NCBI GenBank assembly: GCA_900114885.1
Contig: FOUN01000008.1
Location: forward strand, 62,001-126,000
Length of the DNA stretch: 64,000 bases
Reading direction: 5' to 3'
Source: Psychrobacillus psychrodurans
Lineage (GTDB): Bacteria; Bacillota; Bacilli; Bacillales_A; Planococcaceae
The position numbers were made by a program, and so were the translations under genes. The notes under the pieces were generated by a model. It worked only from the letters and a program-made list of their open reading frames with translations, did not search any database and was not told where the DNA came from. This document shows positions 227-62,902 of this stretch, in pieces. The stretch's first letter is position 1; each line of letters starts with the position of its first letter.

Positions 227-285
227 TGTGAAAGTAGCTTGTAAAAAATGTCGATTTTCAGTAGTTTTTAAAAACTACTTTCATA
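227..285. promoter_or_regulatory. Bipartite inverted element upstream of the HTH-TPR regulator
   Basis: TGTGAAAGTA (227-236) is mirrored by TACTTTCATA (276-285); a 20-bp perfect palindrome built on GTAGTTTTT/AAAAACTAC occupies 260-279 and overlaps the right arm. The right arm ends five bases before the putative -35 of the regulator. The same pair of arms, with almost the same spacing, recurs at 2259-2316 in front of the opposing DUF4288-like gene. A regulatory role as a binding site of the adjacent regulator is inference. Confidence 0.5.
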
Positions 286-384: not shown

Positions 385-1671
385 ATGAACCTAGGACAAT
401 TGATCAAGTTAGAGCGGCAGAGACAGAATATAAAGCAAGAGGCATTGGCTATTGGTATTTGTGTCCCCTCTTATTTGAGTAGAATCGAAAACGGATTAGT
501 CATTCCAAGTGAAGACATAAAGCATCATATTCTGATGAGATTGAATATTTCGTTAGACTCGTTGAATGGTAATCGAAATGAAAAGAAAATTGTTCAGTTT
601 AAAATACGGTTCAAGCAGATTCTAAATTCACGAGACAAAAAGCTTGCTAAAGAGCTTCTTTCCGAAATTCATCTTTATATCGAGGAACATCCATTAGATG
701 AAGAACGACTAACGTTACTTTTATTAGAAGCTCGCCTAATGGTTATGCTGCCTGAGGTATTGGATATGAAAAATAATATCCACATTTTGAAAGAATTCAA
801 AAAAGAAATGACAATTGAACAGTTATTTTACCTCTACACGATTCAAGGTATCACTGCCTATCAAGATAATCAGTTTAGCCAAGCATCTCAAATTTTTAAG
901 GAAGTCTTTCAGTTGATCAAAGGATTTCGAATGGACGACTGGGAGATGGCAGAACTATATTACATATCTGGGTTATCACTTTTATCTGAATCCCGCTACA
1001 TTCTAGCTATTGATTATGTAAAGGAAGCAATTTCATATTTCAATCAAGAGATTTTAATAGAACGATCGATTGAGTGTTTAATAATCCTAGGGATTGCACA
1101 AAAGAATACAGGACTCTTAAAGGAAGCTCTCGCTACTTTTGAAAGAGCTAGAGATATCAATTCAAAAATAGAATCCTCTGAGTTTAATGGCATGATTGAA
1201 CATAATTTAGGTTCCTGTTACTCATTACAAAAAGATTCTCATCAAGCATTGCAGCACTTTTTTTATAGTTTAGATGCAAAACATTTCCCTGATGATAAAG
1301 TTGTGACTATTTTATCTATTTTGAAGGAATATCACAAAAATGGTGATTTACAGAATGCATTAGTATGGCTACAAAAGGGGCTAGAGATATCCGAGCACCT
1401 ATCCAATAGCAAGAAGGATCTTTATACAAACCACTTCTCCGTATATGGAGCGATATTACTGGAGAAACAAGAGATTATCGCTATTTTTAAGAAAGCTTTG
1501 GATTATTTCGGTGGCAAGCAGGACTATAAAAATTGTATGATTTATTGCCACGTTTTAGCTAAGCGATTAGCTGAAACTAAACAATATAAACAAGCTTCAA
1601 TTTACTATGATTTAGGTTTTCATTTTCATTTGAAGCAATCAAAAGTATCTAGTTGGGAGGAATTGTCATGA
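385..1671 (+). CDS. RRNPP-type quorum-sensing regulator (HTH + TPR)
   Basis: A 428-residue cytoplasmic regulator. Residues about 5-58 form an Xre-type helix-turn-helix (IKLERQRQNIKQEALA, then SYLSRIENG recognition helix); the remainder is all-helical with repeated TPR-like pairs (for example EMAELYYISGLSLL and IEHNLGSCYSLQ). This architecture and length match the NprR branch of the RRNPP family, whose members bind a re-imported peptide in the TPR cup and then activate or release DNA. The start is supported by AAGGGGGTG eight bases upstream. Its stop overlaps the start of a small secreted-peptide gene (ATGA), the classic receptor-signal arrangement. It is not PlcR (about 285 aa) by length. Membership of the family is well supported; specific targets are unknown. 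Confidence 0.85.
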   Translation: MNLGQLIKLERQRQNIKQEALAIGICVPSYLSRIENGLVIPSEDIKHHILMRLNISLDSLNGNRNEKKIVQFKIRFKQILNSRDKKLAKELLSEIHLYIEEHPLDEERLTLLLLEARLMVMLPEVLDMKNNIHILKEFKKEMTIEQLFYLYTIQGITAYQDNQFSQASQIFKEVFQLIKGFRMDDWEMAELYYISGLSLLSESRYILAIDYVKEAISYFNQEILIERSIECLIILGIAQKNTGLLKEALATFERARDINSKIESSEFNGMIEHNLGSCYSLQKDSHQALQHFFYSLDAKHFPDDKVVTILSILKEYHKNGDLQNALVWLQKGLEISEHLSNSKKDLYTNHFSVYGAILLEKQEIIAIFKKALDYFGGKQDYKNCMIYCHVLAKRLAETKQYKQASIYYDLGFHFHLKQSKVSSWEELS

Positions 1672-1790
1672 AGAAAATTGTATTTGGAGTTCTACTTTGT
1701 TTCGTTCTATTCACACTACCGGTTTTGAGTTCAAATCATCTTGCAGAAGACGACAAGCCAAAAATCACTTCTGTTGGCGATTTTATCTAA
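1668..1790 (+). CDS. Putative signalling pro-peptide (Phr/PapR/NprX-like)
   Basis: A 40-codon gene overlapping the regulator stop by four bases (ATGA), with a strong GGGAGG seven bases before the ATG inside the regulator's 3' end. The product starts MKKIVFGVLL, continues through an uninterrupted hydrophobic stretch to LPVLSS (a typical Sec signal peptide), then has a short polar tail NHLAEDDKPKITSVGDFI. In RRNPP systems the cognate signal is a 5-10 residue piece of such a C-terminal tail, cut by extracellular proteases and re-imported by Opp. The likely active peptide here lies within KPKITSVGDFI; its exact ends cannot be read from sequence. The gene is followed by a good terminator. Confidence 0.8.
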   Translation: MKKIVFGVLLCFVLFTLPVLSSNHLAEDDKPKITSVGDFI

Positions 1791-1825
1791 CCAAAACGTA
1801 TCGAAAAACAGATTTAGGAAACATA

Positions 1826-1862
1826 AAAACGAGTCCTCTTCAGTACATGGACTCGTTTTTAA
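1826..1862. terminator. Bidirectional intrinsic terminator
   Basis: Arms AAAACGAGTCC (1826-1836) and GGACTCGTTTT (1849-1859) with a 12-base loop; T-rich on the plus side and A-rich on the left, so it can end both the regulator/peptide transcript and the converging DUF4288-like gene. Confidence 0.85.
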
Positions 1863-1891: not shown

Positions 1892-2197
1892 TTATTCAAC
1901 CGTCACTTCTTCATCCAGTATAATATGTTGACTATATACCTCTACAAACTCCAAGGATTCTTCAATATTATCCACTAGTTCAAATACATCAAGAATCATT
2001 GCGAGCTTTATCGTCGTGTCTTCACCAAAGATGTTTTTATAGGTGACATCTTTATAGTGAGCCTTGACTAGTCGATCAACATCCTCTAATTTTACAGCCC
2101 GAATAATATTAATAGTCTCTTCATATATTTTGTTTGACATAGTATCAGTTGAAGAAATATGTTCGAACAATAGTTTAACAGAAAAAATTTTATACAT
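1892..2197 (-). CDS. Small DUF4288-like protein
   Basis: A 101-residue soluble protein starting MYKIFSVKLLFEH. The opening (MY-IFSVKLLFE) and the later ILDVFELVDNIEES...VEVYS match what I know of the DUF4288 family, whose function is not established. The start is placed at the ATG at 2197 because GAGGTG lies six bases upstream; a GTG three codons earlier overlaps that ribosome site and is less likely. It converges on the quorum-sensing cassette and carries, 62-119 bp upstream, the same bipartite element found before the regulator, so it may be co-regulated (inference). Confidence 0.6.
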   Translation of the reverse strand: MYKIFSVKLLFEHISSTDTMSNKIYEETINIIRAVKLEDVDRLVKAHYKDVTYKNIFGEDTTIKLAMILDVFELVDNIEESLEFVEVYSQHIILDEEVTVE

Positions 2198-2258: not shown

Positions 2259-2316
2259 TGTGAAAGTATAACCTGAATAACGTACTTAAAACACGTTTTT
2301 TGTTCTTACTTTCATA
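2259..2316. promoter_or_regulatory. Second bipartite inverted element, upstream of the DUF4288-like gene
   Basis: TGTGAAAGTA (2259-2268) and TACTTTCATA (2307-2316), spanning 58 bp versus 59 bp for the copy at 227-285, while the sequence between the arms differs. On the minus strand a TATACT (-10-like, 2265-2270 read in reverse) overlaps the left arm, placing the element across the promoter of the minus-strand gene. Confidence 0.5.
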
Positions 2317-2350: not shown

Positions 2351-4168
2351 TCAAATATTAAACTGACTTTCATATAGTTCATAATAGAATCCTCGTTTAT
2401 TTAGAAGTTCTTTATGCGTTCCAGCTTCAATTAGTTCACCGTGATGAATGACTAGAATTTTGTCCGCATTTTCTATTGTTTTTAAGCGATGGGCTATGAC
2501 AAAACTAGTACGGCCTTCCGAAAGTCTATTTAGTCCTTGCTGTATATCTATCTCCGTTTTCGTATCAATGCTTGAAGTTGCTTCATCTAAGATTAATATA
2601 TCTGAATCAGCTAAAATAGCACGAGCAATCGCTAATAATTGTCGCTGTCCCTGGCTTAAATTAGACCCATTTCCAGTAACCTGCGTGTCATACTTATCAG
2701 GTAAATGCTTGATAAACCTATGAGCAGATGCAAGTTTAGCAGCTTCTACTACCTCTTCATCGTTTGCCTCGAGTCTGCCGTAGCGAATATTTTCTAAAAT
2801 AGAACCTGAAAATAGAAAGGTATCTTGTAAAACAATACCAATTTTTTCACGAAGCTTACTTATTTGATACTCCCGAATTGATATCCCATCAATTTCAATC
2901 TCCCCAGAGTCAATCTCATAAAACCGCATGAGCAAATTAATGATTGTTGTTTTCCCGGATCCTGTTGGACCTACTAAGGCAATCTTTTCTCCTACTTTTG
3001 TCTCGAAGCTAATATTCTTTAAGATAGGTTTTCCAGTCTCATATGAAAAGTGAACATTAGAAAATTTAACGTCCCCTTTTAAAGTATCTATTGTAATTAT
3101 GCTCTCCTGATCTTGAAGGTCGGGAGTCTCATCCATTATTTCAAATACTCGCTCTGCTCCTGCTATAGCAGACTGAAAGGTATTCAATAAAGTTGAAAGC
3201 TGATTAATTGGTCTAAAGAATTGTCTTGAATAATTTACAAAAGCTGCAATTATACCGACTGTTGCCAATTCTTGTACAGTCATCACAGCTCCAATTCCAA
3301 TAATTAATGCAAGACCTAAATTGTTGATAAAGTTGTTGATAGGCCCTAGAAATCCGGATACAGTATCAGCTGCGGTTGCCGAGTGCCGTAGTCTTTCATT
3401 GACAAGCGAGAATTTGTTGAAATTCTTTTCTTCTTGCCCAAAAAGTGTAATTACTTCATTTCCTGAAATGGCTTCTTCTATAAAACCATTTAGCTCACCT
3501 AAATCACGTTGTCTTTTGATGAAGTTGCTACTACTATACGTAATAATTTTTTTCGTCGTGAAAATAACTAATGGTACTACTAACAGTGACACTATTGCTA
3601 ACACCCAGTTAAGCAGAAACATCGCTATCGTTACACCTGTCACCATCATTACAGTAGAAATAATTTGAATTACACTTTGACTTAATGCGTTATTCAAGCT
3701 TTCAATATCGTTCGTAACTCGACTCATAAGATCTCCATGAGTACGTTTATCGAAAAACCGCAAAGACAGAGTTTGAAACTTTTCATATAAATCTTGTCGT
3801 AATGACCTAATCGTTTTCAAGGATACTCGAACCATTAAAAAATTCTGTAGCCAAGTAAACGCAGCAGCAGCTGTATACACAATTGCTAGTATTACTAAGA
3901 AGCGTATTGTTCCTTCCATATCCTTAGGAATTATATACTCATCAATGGTTACACCAATCATATAAGGAACTAACAAGTTTAATAGAGTAGATATTATTAC
4001 TAATATAATCGAAAATACAATAGCAATTTTTTGTTTCTCCATATATCGCCAGATTCGTTTTATCGTACCTTTTTTATCTTTTGCTTTCTCTACTGGTCCA
4101 CCAAATCCTCTTGGGCCTCTTGCACGCCCTATTGCACTAGAAGAAGGTTTAGCTGAAGCCTTACTCAT
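2351..4168 (-). CDS. Heterodimeric ABC multidrug exporter, subunit 2
   Basis: Half-size exporter of about 605 residues: a basic, glycine-rich N-terminal tail, six membrane segments, then an ATPase domain with Walker A GPTGSGKTT, Walker B ILILDEATSSID and H-loop IAHRLKT. The signature is LSQGQ rather than LSGGQ. With the partner upstream this gives one consensus site (this Walker A/B/H with the partner's LSGGQ) and one degenerate site, as in TM287/288-type heterodimers. The ATG at 4168 follows AAAGGGGG and overlaps the partner's stop by eight bases; an ATG at 4222 lies deep inside the partner and lacks a ribosome site. It is closest to the YfiC/YknV class; the drug or lipid exported is unknown. 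Confidence 0.88.
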   Translation of the reverse strand: MSKASAKPSSSAIGRARGPRGFGGPVEKAKDKKGTIKRIWRYMEKQKIAIVFSIILVIISTLLNLLVPYMIGVTIDEYIIPKDMEGTIRFLVILAIVYTAAAAFTWLQNFLMVRVSLKTIRSLRQDLYEKFQTLSLRFFDKRTHGDLMSRVTNDIESLNNALSQSVIQIISTVMMVTGVTIAMFLLNWVLAIVSLLVVPLVIFTTKKIITYSSSNFIKRQRDLGELNGFIEEAISGNEVITLFGQEEKNFNKFSLVNERLRHSATAADTVSGFLGPINNFINNLGLALIIGIGAVMTVQELATVGIIAAFVNYSRQFFRPINQLSTLLNTFQSAIAGAERVFEIMDETPDLQDQESIITIDTLKGDVKFSNVHFSYETGKPILKNISFETKVGEKIALVGPTGSGKTTIINLLMRFYEIDSGEIEIDGISIREYQISKLREKIGIVLQDTFLFSGSILENIRYGRLEANDEEVVEAAKLASAHRFIKHLPDKYDTQVTGNGSNLSQGQRQLLAIARAILADSDILILDEATSSIDTKTEIDIQQGLNRLSEGRTSFVIAHRLKTIENADKILVIHHGELIEAGTHKELLNKRGFYYELYESQFNI

Positions 4169-5903
4169 AGGAAAGGACCCCCTTTCCACTTTGTGTTGCA
4201 TAAATACTTTGGTAAACCTCACTCGCTACAAGCAGCTCTTCATGGGTACCACTTGCTACGATCATTCCATCCTCCATTACAAGAATTCGATCGGCATTTA
4301 TAATAGAAGAGACTTTGGATGATACGATGAATACAGTTGTATCCGATAAATACTGTCCAAGAGCTTGCTGTACCTGAACTTCAGATATTGCATCTATAGC
4401 TGAAGTTGAATCATCTAAAACTAATATTTTGGGTTGACGTATGAATGCACGACTCATGGATAATCGTTGTTTTTGTCCTCCTGACAAATTGGTTGCTCCT
4501 TGCATAAGCTCATGTGCAAATTGGTCTTCTAATTTTTCTATAAACTCACTTGCCGCTGCTGAGTTTGTCGCTTTTTCCATATCTTCTAAGGTAGCTTCTT
4601 CTTTTCCAAAGCGTATATTCTCTGCTATTGACCCTGCAAATAGCTTTGCATTCTGCGGTACAAACCCAATTGACTCTCGTAAATTCTCAATAGTATACTC
4701 TTTTATATTTATCCCGTTGATTAATACCTCTCCTAAATCTGGGTCATACAATCGAGGAAGAAGTTTAATGAGCGTTGACTTCCCGCTCCCTGTTTGTCCT
4801 ATAATTCCAATAGTTTCGCCACTATTCACATGAAAGGAAATATCCTTTAATACATATTCTCCGTTTTTACTATAGCTAAAATAGACCGATTTAAACTCTA
4901 CTTCGCCTTTGATATTATTATCCGATACAGGAGTTGTAGGATCAGTTATATCAATTTTTGTTTCCAAAACTTGTTGAATTCGAACAGCAGATGTGAACGA
5001 CCTCGTAATTTGCATTAATACATGACTACTAGATACCAGCCCGTTCATAATAATCGTTAAATAGTTGGTGAACGCTAAAATAACTCCGACCTCTAACGTT
5101 CCCTCATTTACTTTTATAGCACCCATCCACATCCCAATTACTACACCAATATTGACGATAAATAGCATAACGGGCATTAGTGTAAGAATCACCTGTTCTG
5201 CAGACATATTGCGTTTCGTTAACTCTTCATTTACACGTTTAAATGCTTTTATCTCATAATCTTGTCGATTGAATGCCTTAATTACACGTATACCCGCAAA
5301 CGTTTCTTGAAGCTTAGTATTCACTTTGTCTATAGCTTTTTGTACTCTTGCAAATAATTTCCCTGTTTTATAAGAGAAAAAGTAGATTAACACAATTAGT
5401 ATGGGAATAACAACCAGTAGTACAGGGAATAGCTCTCTAGCGGTAAACCAAACAATCGCAACTGCTCCTATAAATAATAGCGGTCCTCTGACAAAAACAC
5501 GAAGTGTCATCATAAGTGCTTGTTGGACAGCAGTTATGTCATTCGTCACAATCGTTATTAATTTACCCACACCAATATTGTCCATATTTTTACTTGAAAA
5601 CTTCTCAGTCATTTTGAAAACATCTCTTCGAATATCAGCCGCAAAATTTACTGCTGCTCTAGTACTATATATAGTACAACCTACTCCACCTATCAGCCCA
5701 ATTACTGCAGCTACAAGCATTAAAATACCAAGTTTTACTACATAAGCTGTGTCATCATTAGCAATACCATCATCAATAATATGTTGCATGATTGTCGGGG
5801 ATAATAAATCCATGGCCACTTCAATACACATAAAAATTGGTGCTAAAATAGCAAAAAGCATATATGGTTTAACATAAGGAAGTAATTCCCTAAAGGATTT
5901 CAT
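4161..5903 (-). CDS. Heterodimeric ABC multidrug exporter, subunit 1
   Basis: A 580-residue half-exporter: six membrane segments (residues about 15-300) and an ATPase domain with Walker A GQTGSGKST near residue 369 and signature LSGGQ near 475. The Walker B ends LVLDDSTSAID, so the catalytic glutamate is aspartate, and the H-loop histidine is replaced (IVSSKVSS). These are the marks of the degenerate-site partner in heterodimeric exporters (YfiB/YknU class). The gene lies 13 bases after padR and overlaps subunit 2, so the three are one operon. Confidence 0.88.
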   Translation of the reverse strand: MKSFRELLPYVKPYMLFAILAPIFMCIEVAMDLLSPTIMQHIIDDGIANDDTAYVVKLGILMLVAAVIGLIGGVGCTIYSTRAAVNFAADIRRDVFKMTEKFSSKNMDNIGVGKLITIVTNDITAVQQALMMTLRVFVRGPLLFIGAVAIVWFTARELFPVLLVVIPILIVLIYFFSYKTGKLFARVQKAIDKVNTKLQETFAGIRVIKAFNRQDYEIKAFKRVNEELTKRNMSAEQVILTLMPVMLFIVNIGVVIGMWMGAIKVNEGTLEVGVILAFTNYLTIIMNGLVSSSHVLMQITRSFTSAVRIQQVLETKIDITDPTTPVSDNNIKGEVEFKSVYFSYSKNGEYVLKDISFHVNSGETIGIIGQTGSGKSTLIKLLPRLYDPDLGEVLINGINIKEYTIENLRESIGFVPQNAKLFAGSIAENIRFGKEEATLEDMEKATNSAAASEFIEKLEDQFAHELMQGATNLSGGQKQRLSMSRAFIRQPKILVLDDSTSAIDAISEVQVQQALGQYLSDTTVFIVSSKVSSIINADRILVMEDGMIVASGTHEELLVASEVYQSIYATQSGKGVLSYE

Positions 5904-5916
5904 ATTATCTCACTCC

Positions 5917-6378
5917 CTAATAGTTCTCTGTCTGTAATCTCTCTGTTATTTCTTTCATAAATGCAATAAGTTTTGGCGAATTCTCGGGAGTGTTTCGGCT
6001 TTTCTTTATCGCTTTTCTAAGCTCCGCCTCCCACAAATCGATAATCTCCTTTAAACGAATAGCTTCATCAGAGTTTTGCCAGCTCCATCGATCCTCCCAG
6101 TTGCTCCAAAATGCACCTTCTTTACTTTTTGCAAACTCCTGCAATCGAATTTTTCCCTTTTCTTGAATGCAATAAGTCTTTTTATCGGAGGAAGGTTCGA
6201 GTTCTATCATTTCCTTTTCCAACAATTCTTGAAGTGCCGGGTATACTGTTCCCGCACTGGCAGAATAATGTCCTCCCGACCTAATTTCTAATTCCTTCAT
6301 TATTTGATATCCATGCATCGGTGCTTCCTCCAATAGATGCAAGATGGCCATTTGAATAAATCCTCTACGTTTTTTCAT
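5917..6378 (-). CDS. PadR-family transcriptional repressor
   Basis: A 153-residue PadR regulator. The winged helix is recognisable (RRGFIQMAILHLLEEAPMHG, YQIMKEL, then SAGTVYPALQELLEKEMI), followed by a helical C-terminal dimerisation arm rich in W and charged residues. PadR proteins repress efflux genes and are released by the drugs exported. The start at 6378 has AAGGAG nine bases upstream; a TTG three codons earlier is not needed. It is the first gene of the exporter operon and a large palindrome sits right before it, so autoregulation is likely. Confidence 0.88.
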   Translation of the reverse strand: MKKRRGFIQMAILHLLEEAPMHGYQIMKELEIRSGGHYSASAGTVYPALQELLEKEMIELEPSSDKKTYCIQEKGKIRLQEFAKSKEGAFWSNWEDRWSWQNSDEAIRLKEIIDLWEAELRKAIKKSRNTPENSPKLIAFMKEITERLQTENY

Positions 6379-6393
6379 GTAAAACAACTCCTT

Positions 6394-61729: not shown

Positions 61730-62902
61730 TTAAGCTATTTTCTTCGTACCCTTCCATAAAATAGAACCAATTGTCGTTGCTACTAATACGACTAGCCCTA
61801 GTATGAAAGGATATATAATATTCACATCATATAATATTCCAGCAAGCAATGGACCTAATACATTTCCAATACTCATATAAGCATTGTTCATACCCATTGC
61901 AAATCCTTGTTCGTTTCCAGCTAATTTAGAAATTAAAGTTGTTAACACTGGACGCAATATTGAAGTCGAAAGGAAAATTATCATTGTAATGACAAAGAAA
62001 AATGCATAGCTCGATACTAAAATAGAAAGCAAGAAACCAAACGCTGCAACACCTAAAAAGATTCTCAACACGTTTGCTTCCCCAAAACGACGAACAACTT
62101 TATCCACCACGAACAATTGGATAATTACACTGACAATCCCAGTTCCCGTGATCATCCAGGCAATGTCCTGTGGGGATGCGACAAACTGATCATCTACAAA
62201 AAGACCTAGAACGGATTCATAGGCAAGTAACCCAAAACTCATCACCAGCGTAATAACGAGCGGGATGAAGTAAGGCTTTTTAAATGATTGAGCAATTTCT
62301 TTTACCATCGGTTCTGATTTACCCTCAGGAACACTTACATCCGCTGGCTTACTTTCCTTTAGAACTAAAGTGGAAAAGATAACAGCTACAACACCTACTA
62401 ATGCAGAAACGAGAAGGGGCATTTTCAGTCCGTATTCCGCTAAAAACCCACCAATCCCAGGTCCTACTACTATACCTAAAGACATAGCAGCAGATATTAA
62501 ACTATTACCTTTTGCACGCTGATCCATTGAAGTAATATCCGCCACGTATGCAAAAATAGCCGGAACTAATAACGCCGCACCAACTCCGCCAATAACACGA
62601 GAAACATACAGAATACCTATAGAATCTGAGAAGTAAAATACAAACATAGATAAAGCAAGTCCACTCAGACCAGCAATAATCATAATTCTTCTCCCGTATT
62701 TATCTGCCCATTTACCTGCAATTGGAGACATCACAAGCTGTGCTCCAGCAAATATTGATATCATTAGGCCAGCTGCTATCCCACCTTGATCAATAGATTT
62801 TAAATAGGCTGGTAAAATGGGAATAATAATACCAAAACTCCCTATCGCTATAAACATATTAATCATTAATACAAATAATTTCTTTCTTTGATCGTTCGTC
62901 AT
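61730..62902 (-). CDS. MFS multidrug exporter (Bmr/NorA-type)
   Basis: 390 residues, 12 membrane segments, drug:proton antiporter group DHA1. Motif A GKWADKYGRRIMII, and motif C GIVVGPGIGGFLAEYG in segment 5, which marks antiporters. SPIAGKWAD and FSTLVLKES also follow the Bmr/Blt/NorA pattern. ATG at 62902 after AGAGGT. Specific drugs unknown. Confidence 0.87.
   Translation of the reverse strand: MTNDQRKKLFVLMINMFIAIGSFGIIIPILPAYLKSIDQGGIAAGLMISIFAGAQLVMSPIAGKWADKYGRRIMIIAGLSGLALSMFVFYFSDSIGILYVSRVIGGVGAALLVPAIFAYVADITSMDQRAKGNSLISAAMSLGIVVGPGIGGFLAEYGLKMPLLVSALVGVVAVIFSTLVLKESKPADVSVPEGKSEPMVKEIAQSFKKPYFIPLVITLVMSFGLLAYESVLGLFVDDQFVASPQDIAWMITGTGIVSVIIQLFVVDKVVRRFGEANVLRIFLGVAAFGFLLSILVSSYAFFFVITMIIFLSTSILRPVLTTLISKLAGNEQGFAMGMNNAYMSIGNVLGPLLAGILYDVNIIYPFILGLVVLVATTIGSILWKGTKKIA

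Follow-up and report, generated by a model that had tools for sequence, protein, structure and literature searches.

Quorum-sensing systems of the RRNPPA type consist of a cytoplasmic receptor built of tetratricopeptide repeats (TPRs), in the present case with an N-terminal helix-turn-helix (HTH) domain, and of an adjacent gene for a short secretory pro-peptide that is conserved along with the receptor; the mature peptide is re-imported and bound in the groove of the TPRs. Among the described systems that come closest to the one considered here, NprR-NprX has a receptor with an HTH domain and nine TPRs; Rap, of the Rap-Phr systems, has no DNA-binding domain (PMC4970707); the AimR operator consists of 6-bp inverted repeats with a 25-bp spacer, which was called unusually long (PMC9232636); and, in AloR-AloP of Paenibacillus, the peptide open reading frame (ORF) partly overlaps the 3' end of the receptor gene and a neighbouring spo0E-like target is under receptor control (PMC7425212). 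Two of these elements, i.e. the HTH-TPR receptor and the adjacent, co-conserved pro-peptide gene, are found in a locus of Psychrobacillus psychrodurans contained in the window (the whole stretch of 64,000 nucleotides that was analysed, positions 62,001 to 126,000 of contig FOUN01000008.1), where they are accompanied by two copies of a bipartite operator and by a convergent gene of the DUF4288 family. The locus is very probably a closed quorum-sensing cassette of an NprR-like RRNPPA branch, which controls itself and the DUF4288 gene by regulation of either sign.

The receptor gene and the 40-residue frame that overlaps it by ATGA, with its ribosome site, lie where the initial annotation had placed them (table 1), and its reading of the pair as an RRNPP-type receptor and a pro-pheromone gains support from the HTH plus nine-TPR fold and from the conserved gene at the junction. 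Not part of that annotation, and described below, are the pair of operators, a convergent DUF4288 gene and a double role of the last receptor codons. In the main comparison set of 47 receptor loci, the window's own among them, a small secretory gene stands at the receptor 3' junction in 45 (43 by script; L013 and L015, with TTG starts, by eye), the two exceptions being L007 (genome G057), with an in-frame TAG, and L018, which has no peptide gene. Conservation of the small frame beside orthologous receptors, the lack of which the initial annotation would have counted as a refutation, is indeed found, with a stop codon in one of the 12 orthologues (L007). When receptor junctions were searched for a small ORF that has a ribosome site, encodes a secretory product and starts no more than 5 nt from the stop, 44 of 57 receptors had one, against 4 of 469 other ORFs (at least 100 aa long, from the same loci), and three of these four are receptor-family genes, or pieces of them, that had slipped past the filter; the receptor-adjacent peptide ORF is more than a product of chance. 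The pro-peptide is called Sec-like on the basis of charge and hydrophobicity, i.e. an MKK start and a hydrophobic stretch. Its relatives in Psychrobacillus are listed by NCBI as ‘hypothetical protein’, so that the gene is not, as had been supposed, too short for ordinary gene callers.

The last codons of the receptor gene double as the ribosome site of the peptide gene, and the site is absent where there is no peptide gene. In a survey of 76 of 80 named loci (L194 and L210-L212 being excluded as partial), W[EQ][DE] occurs close to the C-terminus of 52 receptors; these codons contain GGGAGGA in 42 of the 52, and the script finds a peptide gene in 40 of the 42, the remaining two being L135 (the named copy of the broken Psychrobacillus antarcticus gene) and L169. 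No peptide gene occurs without the GGGAGGA site, and the other ten loci have neither: six encode W-E-D with GAA for GAG (GGGAAGA; three Viridibacillus, one Rummeliibacillus and two Paenisporosarcina), and four, all Kurthia, encode W-Q-D (GGCAAGA). The Fisher probability for this co-occurrence (4e-9) is overstated, because the ten negative rows belong to just two groups in the tree.

Selection on the peptide gene was estimated from 5 intact near orthologues out of the 12 (10 pairs with few sites, which makes the values rough). The ratio of nonsynonymous to synonymous substitution rates (dN/dS) is 0.18 for the whole peptide gene and 0.10 for the receptor gene. Within the peptide, dN/dS and the corresponding ratio of proportions of differences (pN/pS) are 0.19 and 0.24 for residues 1-22; 0.07 and 0.23 for residues 23-29, where synonymous sites are near saturation; 0.06 and 0.10 for residues 29-35 (DKPKITS); and 0.40 and 0.49 for residues 36-40, the weakest constraint of all segments. 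The peptide gene is, in other words, under purifying selection, and least so in its last five codons. Among the more distant members, half of the clade (L008-L013), KPxITS is kept as the core (KPxITF in L009) and the trailer is wholly changed; in the orthologue L013 the core is repeated five times in tandem, as DKPDITS three times and as DKPEITS twice. Because the core is constant, the tail drifts and L013 multiplies the core in tandem, the signal is probably the internal core DKPKITS(V/I) rather than the extreme C-terminus. The initial annotation had looked for the signal at the very end, as a conserved 5-8-mer, which is where the drift is greatest (dN/dS 0.40 against 0.06-0.19). It had also judged the tail unlike any known signal; the core, however, matches SKPDIVG, the minimal active form of NprX (PMC4970707), at K, P and I and, in L013, at D, with the difference that here a C-terminal trailer follows the core.

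The operator is an inverted repeat with arms, in the copy 5' of the receptor gene, at 229-247 and 265-283; the spacer from GAAAG to CTTTC measures 43 in nine of the 12 orthologues and 42 in three. The two short inverted half-sites with a long spacer, the HTH-TPR receptor and the adjacent peptide gene recall AimR-AimP, from which the locus differs in that the spacer is 42-43 rather than 25 bp; no paper met in the literature searches describes a spacer longer than that of AimR, which is weak evidence of absence. In the host genome (one Psychrobacillus; 4.02 Mb, 47 contigs), the strict pattern GAAAGT-N41-ACTTTC occurs in two places of the 4.0 Mb, both at this locus, and the reversed control in none. 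When a matrix built from the 12 operator-1 sites alone was run over 12-14 kb per locus, the receptor site ranked first and the site preceding the DUF4288 gene second in 11 of the 12 loci, with scores of 16.4-27.6 (the lowest in P. antarcticus, G057; L007, L053 and L135), while the best other place reached 14.2 in the window, 14.3 in the 12 loci and 13.7 in one shuffled window.

A related operator, with arms TGGGAAA/TTTCCCA and mostly 43-45 bases between them, is found in the wider family, as scored in 75 of the 76 named loci (L173 was excluded, its upstream region being too short). At least 11 of 14 positions match in 39 of the 46 loci with the C-terminal motif and a peptide gene, and at least 12 of 14 in 32 of the 46 (4.9% and 0.4%, respectively, of shuffles), although these rows are related and not independent; at least 12 of 14 is reached in 2 of 11 loci with the motif and no peptide gene, and in none of the 18 others. 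Outside the window's family, scores of 13 or 14 of 14 are found in 9 of 19 loci with homologues (seven of family f16, one of f57 and one of f14), L126 having been excluded since the locus is cut by a contig end and was misread. The same operator geometry marks receptors that are only about 30% identical.

The second operator copy precedes the convergent DUF4288 gene. In a protein search of 19 Psychrobacillus genomes, DUF4288 is present in 12 of the 12 with the receptor, at most about 1.4 kb from it, and in none of the other 7. Related proteins occur elsewhere (e.g. in Kurthia zopfii, 49%); no DUF4288 gene lies within the flanks examined of the Kurthia receptor loci, and L099 has a DUF4288 ORF some 5 kb away from a receptor. 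A literature search for DUF4288 found no paper. Judged by its published description, AloR-AloP resembles the locus, which differs from it in that the putative target, DUF4288, is convergent and has an operator copy of its own. Between the convergent genes, the terminator scan listed nothing at the inverted repeat given in the table, the loop of which (12) exceeds the limit of that scan (8). Beyond the DUF4288 gene, the minus strand of the window carries a PadR regulator gene and two genes for ABC transporters that are MsbA-like (2351-6387); in 9 of the other 11 orthologue loci, too, DUF4288 is followed by one or more ABC genes, and no operator was listed before the ABC and PadR genes.

Table 1. 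Features of the receptor-peptide-DUF4288 locus, in positions of the window.
Feature	Position	Strand	Basis or remark
Operator 1, 5' of receptor gene, TGTGAAAGTA ... TACTTTCATA	227..285	+	inverted repeat; in 12/12 Psychrobacillus orthologues
Receptor, HTH_3 DNA-binding domain and nine TPRs, 428 aa	385..1671	+	ORF, Pfam, structure model
Ribosome site of peptide gene, GGGAGGA	1655..1661	+	within receptor WEE(L) codons (TGG GAG GAA)
Putative pro-pheromone gene, 40 aa, Sec-like N-terminus, MKKIVFGVLLCFVLFTLPVLSSNHLAEDDKPKITSVGDFI	1668..1790	+	ATGA overlap with receptor stop; dN/dS 0.18
DKPKITS, likely mature pheromone core, codons 29-35	1752..1772	+	pN/pS 0.10 against 0.49 for last five codons; L013 repeats
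Probable bidirectional terminator, 13-bp perfect inverted repeat with A and T runs	1824..1861	.	between convergent genes
DUF4288 gene, convergent, 101 aa from ATG at 2197 (GTG at 2206 also possible)	1892..2197	-	PF14119, E 3.3e-6, 27.7 bits, cut-off 27
Operator 2, 5' of DUF4288 gene, arms and spacing as operator 1	2259..2316	-	matrix built on operator-1 sites only

The receptor matches HTH_3 (9.2e-6, residues 7-45), which sets it apart from Rap, and TPR_12 (8.4e-13), and its structure model (predicted local distance difference test score 91.4) consists of the HTH domain and 18 TPR helices. In VIA-align comparisons the model scores 33.0 with RapJ-CSF (root mean square deviation 3.2, 348 residues aligned), 32.5 with apo NprR (3.8, 349), 30.1 with NprR-NprX (4.1, 342) and 19-21 with AimR, so that Rap and NprR are the nearest folds; with NprR the comparison is limited to the TPR part, because NprR was crystallized in a truncated form that lacks the HTH domain (PMC4970707). 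Of the two architectures to which the initial annotation had likened the pair, NprR-NprX is borne out by the HTH domain and nine TPRs, and PlcR-PapR is not, PlcR having a five-TPR fold in a PDB chain of 293 aa. A PlcR-PapR type was rejected for the receptor with its nine TPRs and 428 aa, the Foldseek template modelling score by query being 0.30-0.34 to PlcR.

All named protein matches at 62-87% identity belong to Psychrobacillus, with a single exception, labelled Bacillus sp. FJAT-22090. A careful tree, with 36 rows taken from a larger one of 98 hand-chosen rows, unites the receptor family in a separate clade of 23 rows (support 100/99), with NprR, Rap and a plasmid receptor of Priestia koreensis FS-1 outside; a clade of the family with NprR is not rejected (approximately unbiased test, p-AU 0.43), in the presence of long branches. 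The plasmids of P. koreensis FS-1 are reported to carry two NprR-NprX systems (PMC10075063), one of which the tree row may represent. The peptide scores far below the cut-offs of the NprX family models (NF033801, 14.1 of 33 bits over residues 1-16; NF033800, 14.7 of 75 over residues 1-18). Searches of genomes from the order (261) and the class (398) with NF033801 gave no match above cut-off, which shows no absence, as no control genome matched either. The NprR residues in contact with Spo0F are unmatched here at D107, Y118 and Y223, and E188 may have its counterpart, displaced by one residue, in the invariant E187. The system appears to work like NprR-NprX and may even hold a sister position to NprR, but it is not filed as a member, because the peptide fails the NprX models and the tree does not place the receptor with NprR.

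From the computed gene structure, conservation, selection, operators and their recurrence, DUF4288 linkage and fold, we infer the following course of events. The receptor and the pro-pheromone would be translated from one unit, coupled via the ribosome site in the receptor's last codons; Sec would export the pro-peptide, and cleavage outside the cell would yield a short peptide around DKPKITS(V); an oligopeptide permease (there are six SBP_bac_5 matches above cut-off in the genome, i.e. permease-type binding proteins) would re-import the peptide, which would be bound in the TPR groove. The bipartite operators at which the receptor would act precede the receptor operon and the DUF4288 gene, and their half-sites are about five DNA turns apart; when peptide-bound, the receptor would probably activate both units, leading to positive feedback and to a DUF4288 output. 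Activation is favoured because the promoter scan listed no consensus sigma-70 site in either promoter region downstream of the operators, and a missing consensus is expected of activator-dependent promoters. A tetramer of NprR-NprX has been proposed to bind two DNA sites (PMC4970707), and half-sites about 50 bp apart would suit bridging of this kind.

That the cassette works by peptide-dependent activation alone appears moderately likely. The same cassette might work with the opposite sign, the apo-receptor sitting on the operators until the peptide releases it, as in AimR, where the apo-dimer binds the long-spaced operator and the peptide inhibits (PMC6536502, PMC9232636); this is less likely, though by no means negligible. 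A good deal less credible is that another protein reads the operator, which would be merely co-inherited, and that the receptor regulates elsewhere or acts on proteins: NprR does have a second, protein-binding function (PMC4970707), and the binding of receptor to operator is here deduced from sequence, but the operator geometry tracks receptors of this clade through genera and neighbourhoods, and the strict pattern has no match in the genome outside this locus. Equally improbable is that the small frame encodes a conserved secreted micro-protein or a membrane partner and no pheromone. Selection covers the whole frame, signal part included, and processing and activity of a pheromone are presumed; the tandem copies of the core in L013, the constant core beside a drifting tail and the NprX-like letters of the core nevertheless speak for a processed signal.

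Several observations weigh against a closed, self-controlling cassette of NprR-like type. A looser operator pattern (6-bp arms, gap 40-46) occurs in 6 places against 3 in the control, so that weak extra sites may exist. In L054, which has an intact peptide gene, operator 2 has its left arm and a degraded right arm, and the nearest relatives outside the genus (L060 and L061) have the receptor site (18.5 and 19.4), no second site and no DUF4288. The arms in the window and its orthologues (type A) read GAAAGT against the family consensus GGGAAA, and scoring with TGGGAAA did not rank the window's site best. In G057 the peptide frame is broken by a stop in the signal sequence and the receptor and DUF4288 remain, which means that the cassette is not always kept whole; furthermore, G004 and G057 have an extra ORF (342-363 aa) between the peptide gene and DUF4288. 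Finally, in a low-identity alignment, the NprR peptide-contact residues are mostly unmatched, with W167 replaced by F or Y in 36 of 45; alignment A1 covers 45 of the 47 loci, without L014, which has an internal stop, and L038, which nearly duplicates L037.

On a wider scale, and tentatively, a large branch of HTH-nine-TPR receptors across Bacilli may share one ancestral operator, with half-sites about five helical turns apart and read by a peptide-assembled tetramer; each lineage would wire this operator, together with a receptor-peptide pair with the ribosome site in the receptor C-terminus, to a different small target: DUF4288 in the case of Psychrobacillus, DUF3006 in that of Paenisporosarcina and, next to the paralogous receptor, a split sigma factor resembling SigO/RsoA.

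The RRNPP papers that were searched for the names Psychrobacillus and Planococcaceae mention neither in their main text, and a literature search for Psychrobacillus and quorum gave no such title among the matches listed; a different RRNPP class, with leaderless peptides, has been reported in Lysinibacillus (PMC10518010). The locus represents a testable RRNPPA branch of Psychrobacillus, Sporosarcina, Paenisporosarcina and kin, with a defined operator and a dedicated target, and Viridibacillus, Rummeliibacillus and Kurthia provide natural variants without the peptide gene. The operator spacing poses the structural question of how a TPR receptor may span about 50 bp, and the linkage gives DUF4288 a first functional context.

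The genome contains a single receptor paralogue, 29% identical and also followed by a small secretory gene. Paralogous receptors of type B (L002/L064 (G000:C28), L067-L069, L071, L073, L074 and L103) have PRPTSI-like pheromones. Seven loci of the genus have them in divergent orientation to a small gene and to one that is sigma-70-like; in four of the seven, the shared upstream region has a bipartite operator scoring at least 12. The copies in L068 match sigma-70 region 4 and, below cut-off, the model of the SigO regulator RsoA (sigO_reg_RsoA, 1.3e-7); in B. subtilis, SigO and RsoA form a split sigma factor.

Genus g11 (L078, L079, L080 and L083; Paenisporosarcina where its contigs were matched) has two tandem receptors on either side of a gene of 98 aa, which Pfam assigns to DUF3006 in L078, and a perfect TGGGAAA/TTTCCCA operator lies between this gene and one receptor in all four; the first receptor of L078 (L018/L143), lacking a peptide gene, is a possible eavesdropper. 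Family f16 (L112-L125 and L127) comprises homologues of about 416 aa, most with a near-perfect operator, and no peptide gene was seen at their junctions. The receptor of L145, from a contig titled Arthrobacter beigongshangensis REN13, falls among those of Sporosarcina, and the record is probably mislabelled or contaminated. Sporosarcina itself has a second, different receptor (L075:9769-11064, L077:1268-2548), followed by pro-peptides ending in GLGGTDVGPPHTRG and GIGGPDVGPPHGKG, respectively. A perfect operator also accompanies L131 (G446), a distant homologue that belongs to another family; its pro-peptide ends in three tandem EPDHPKIV units.
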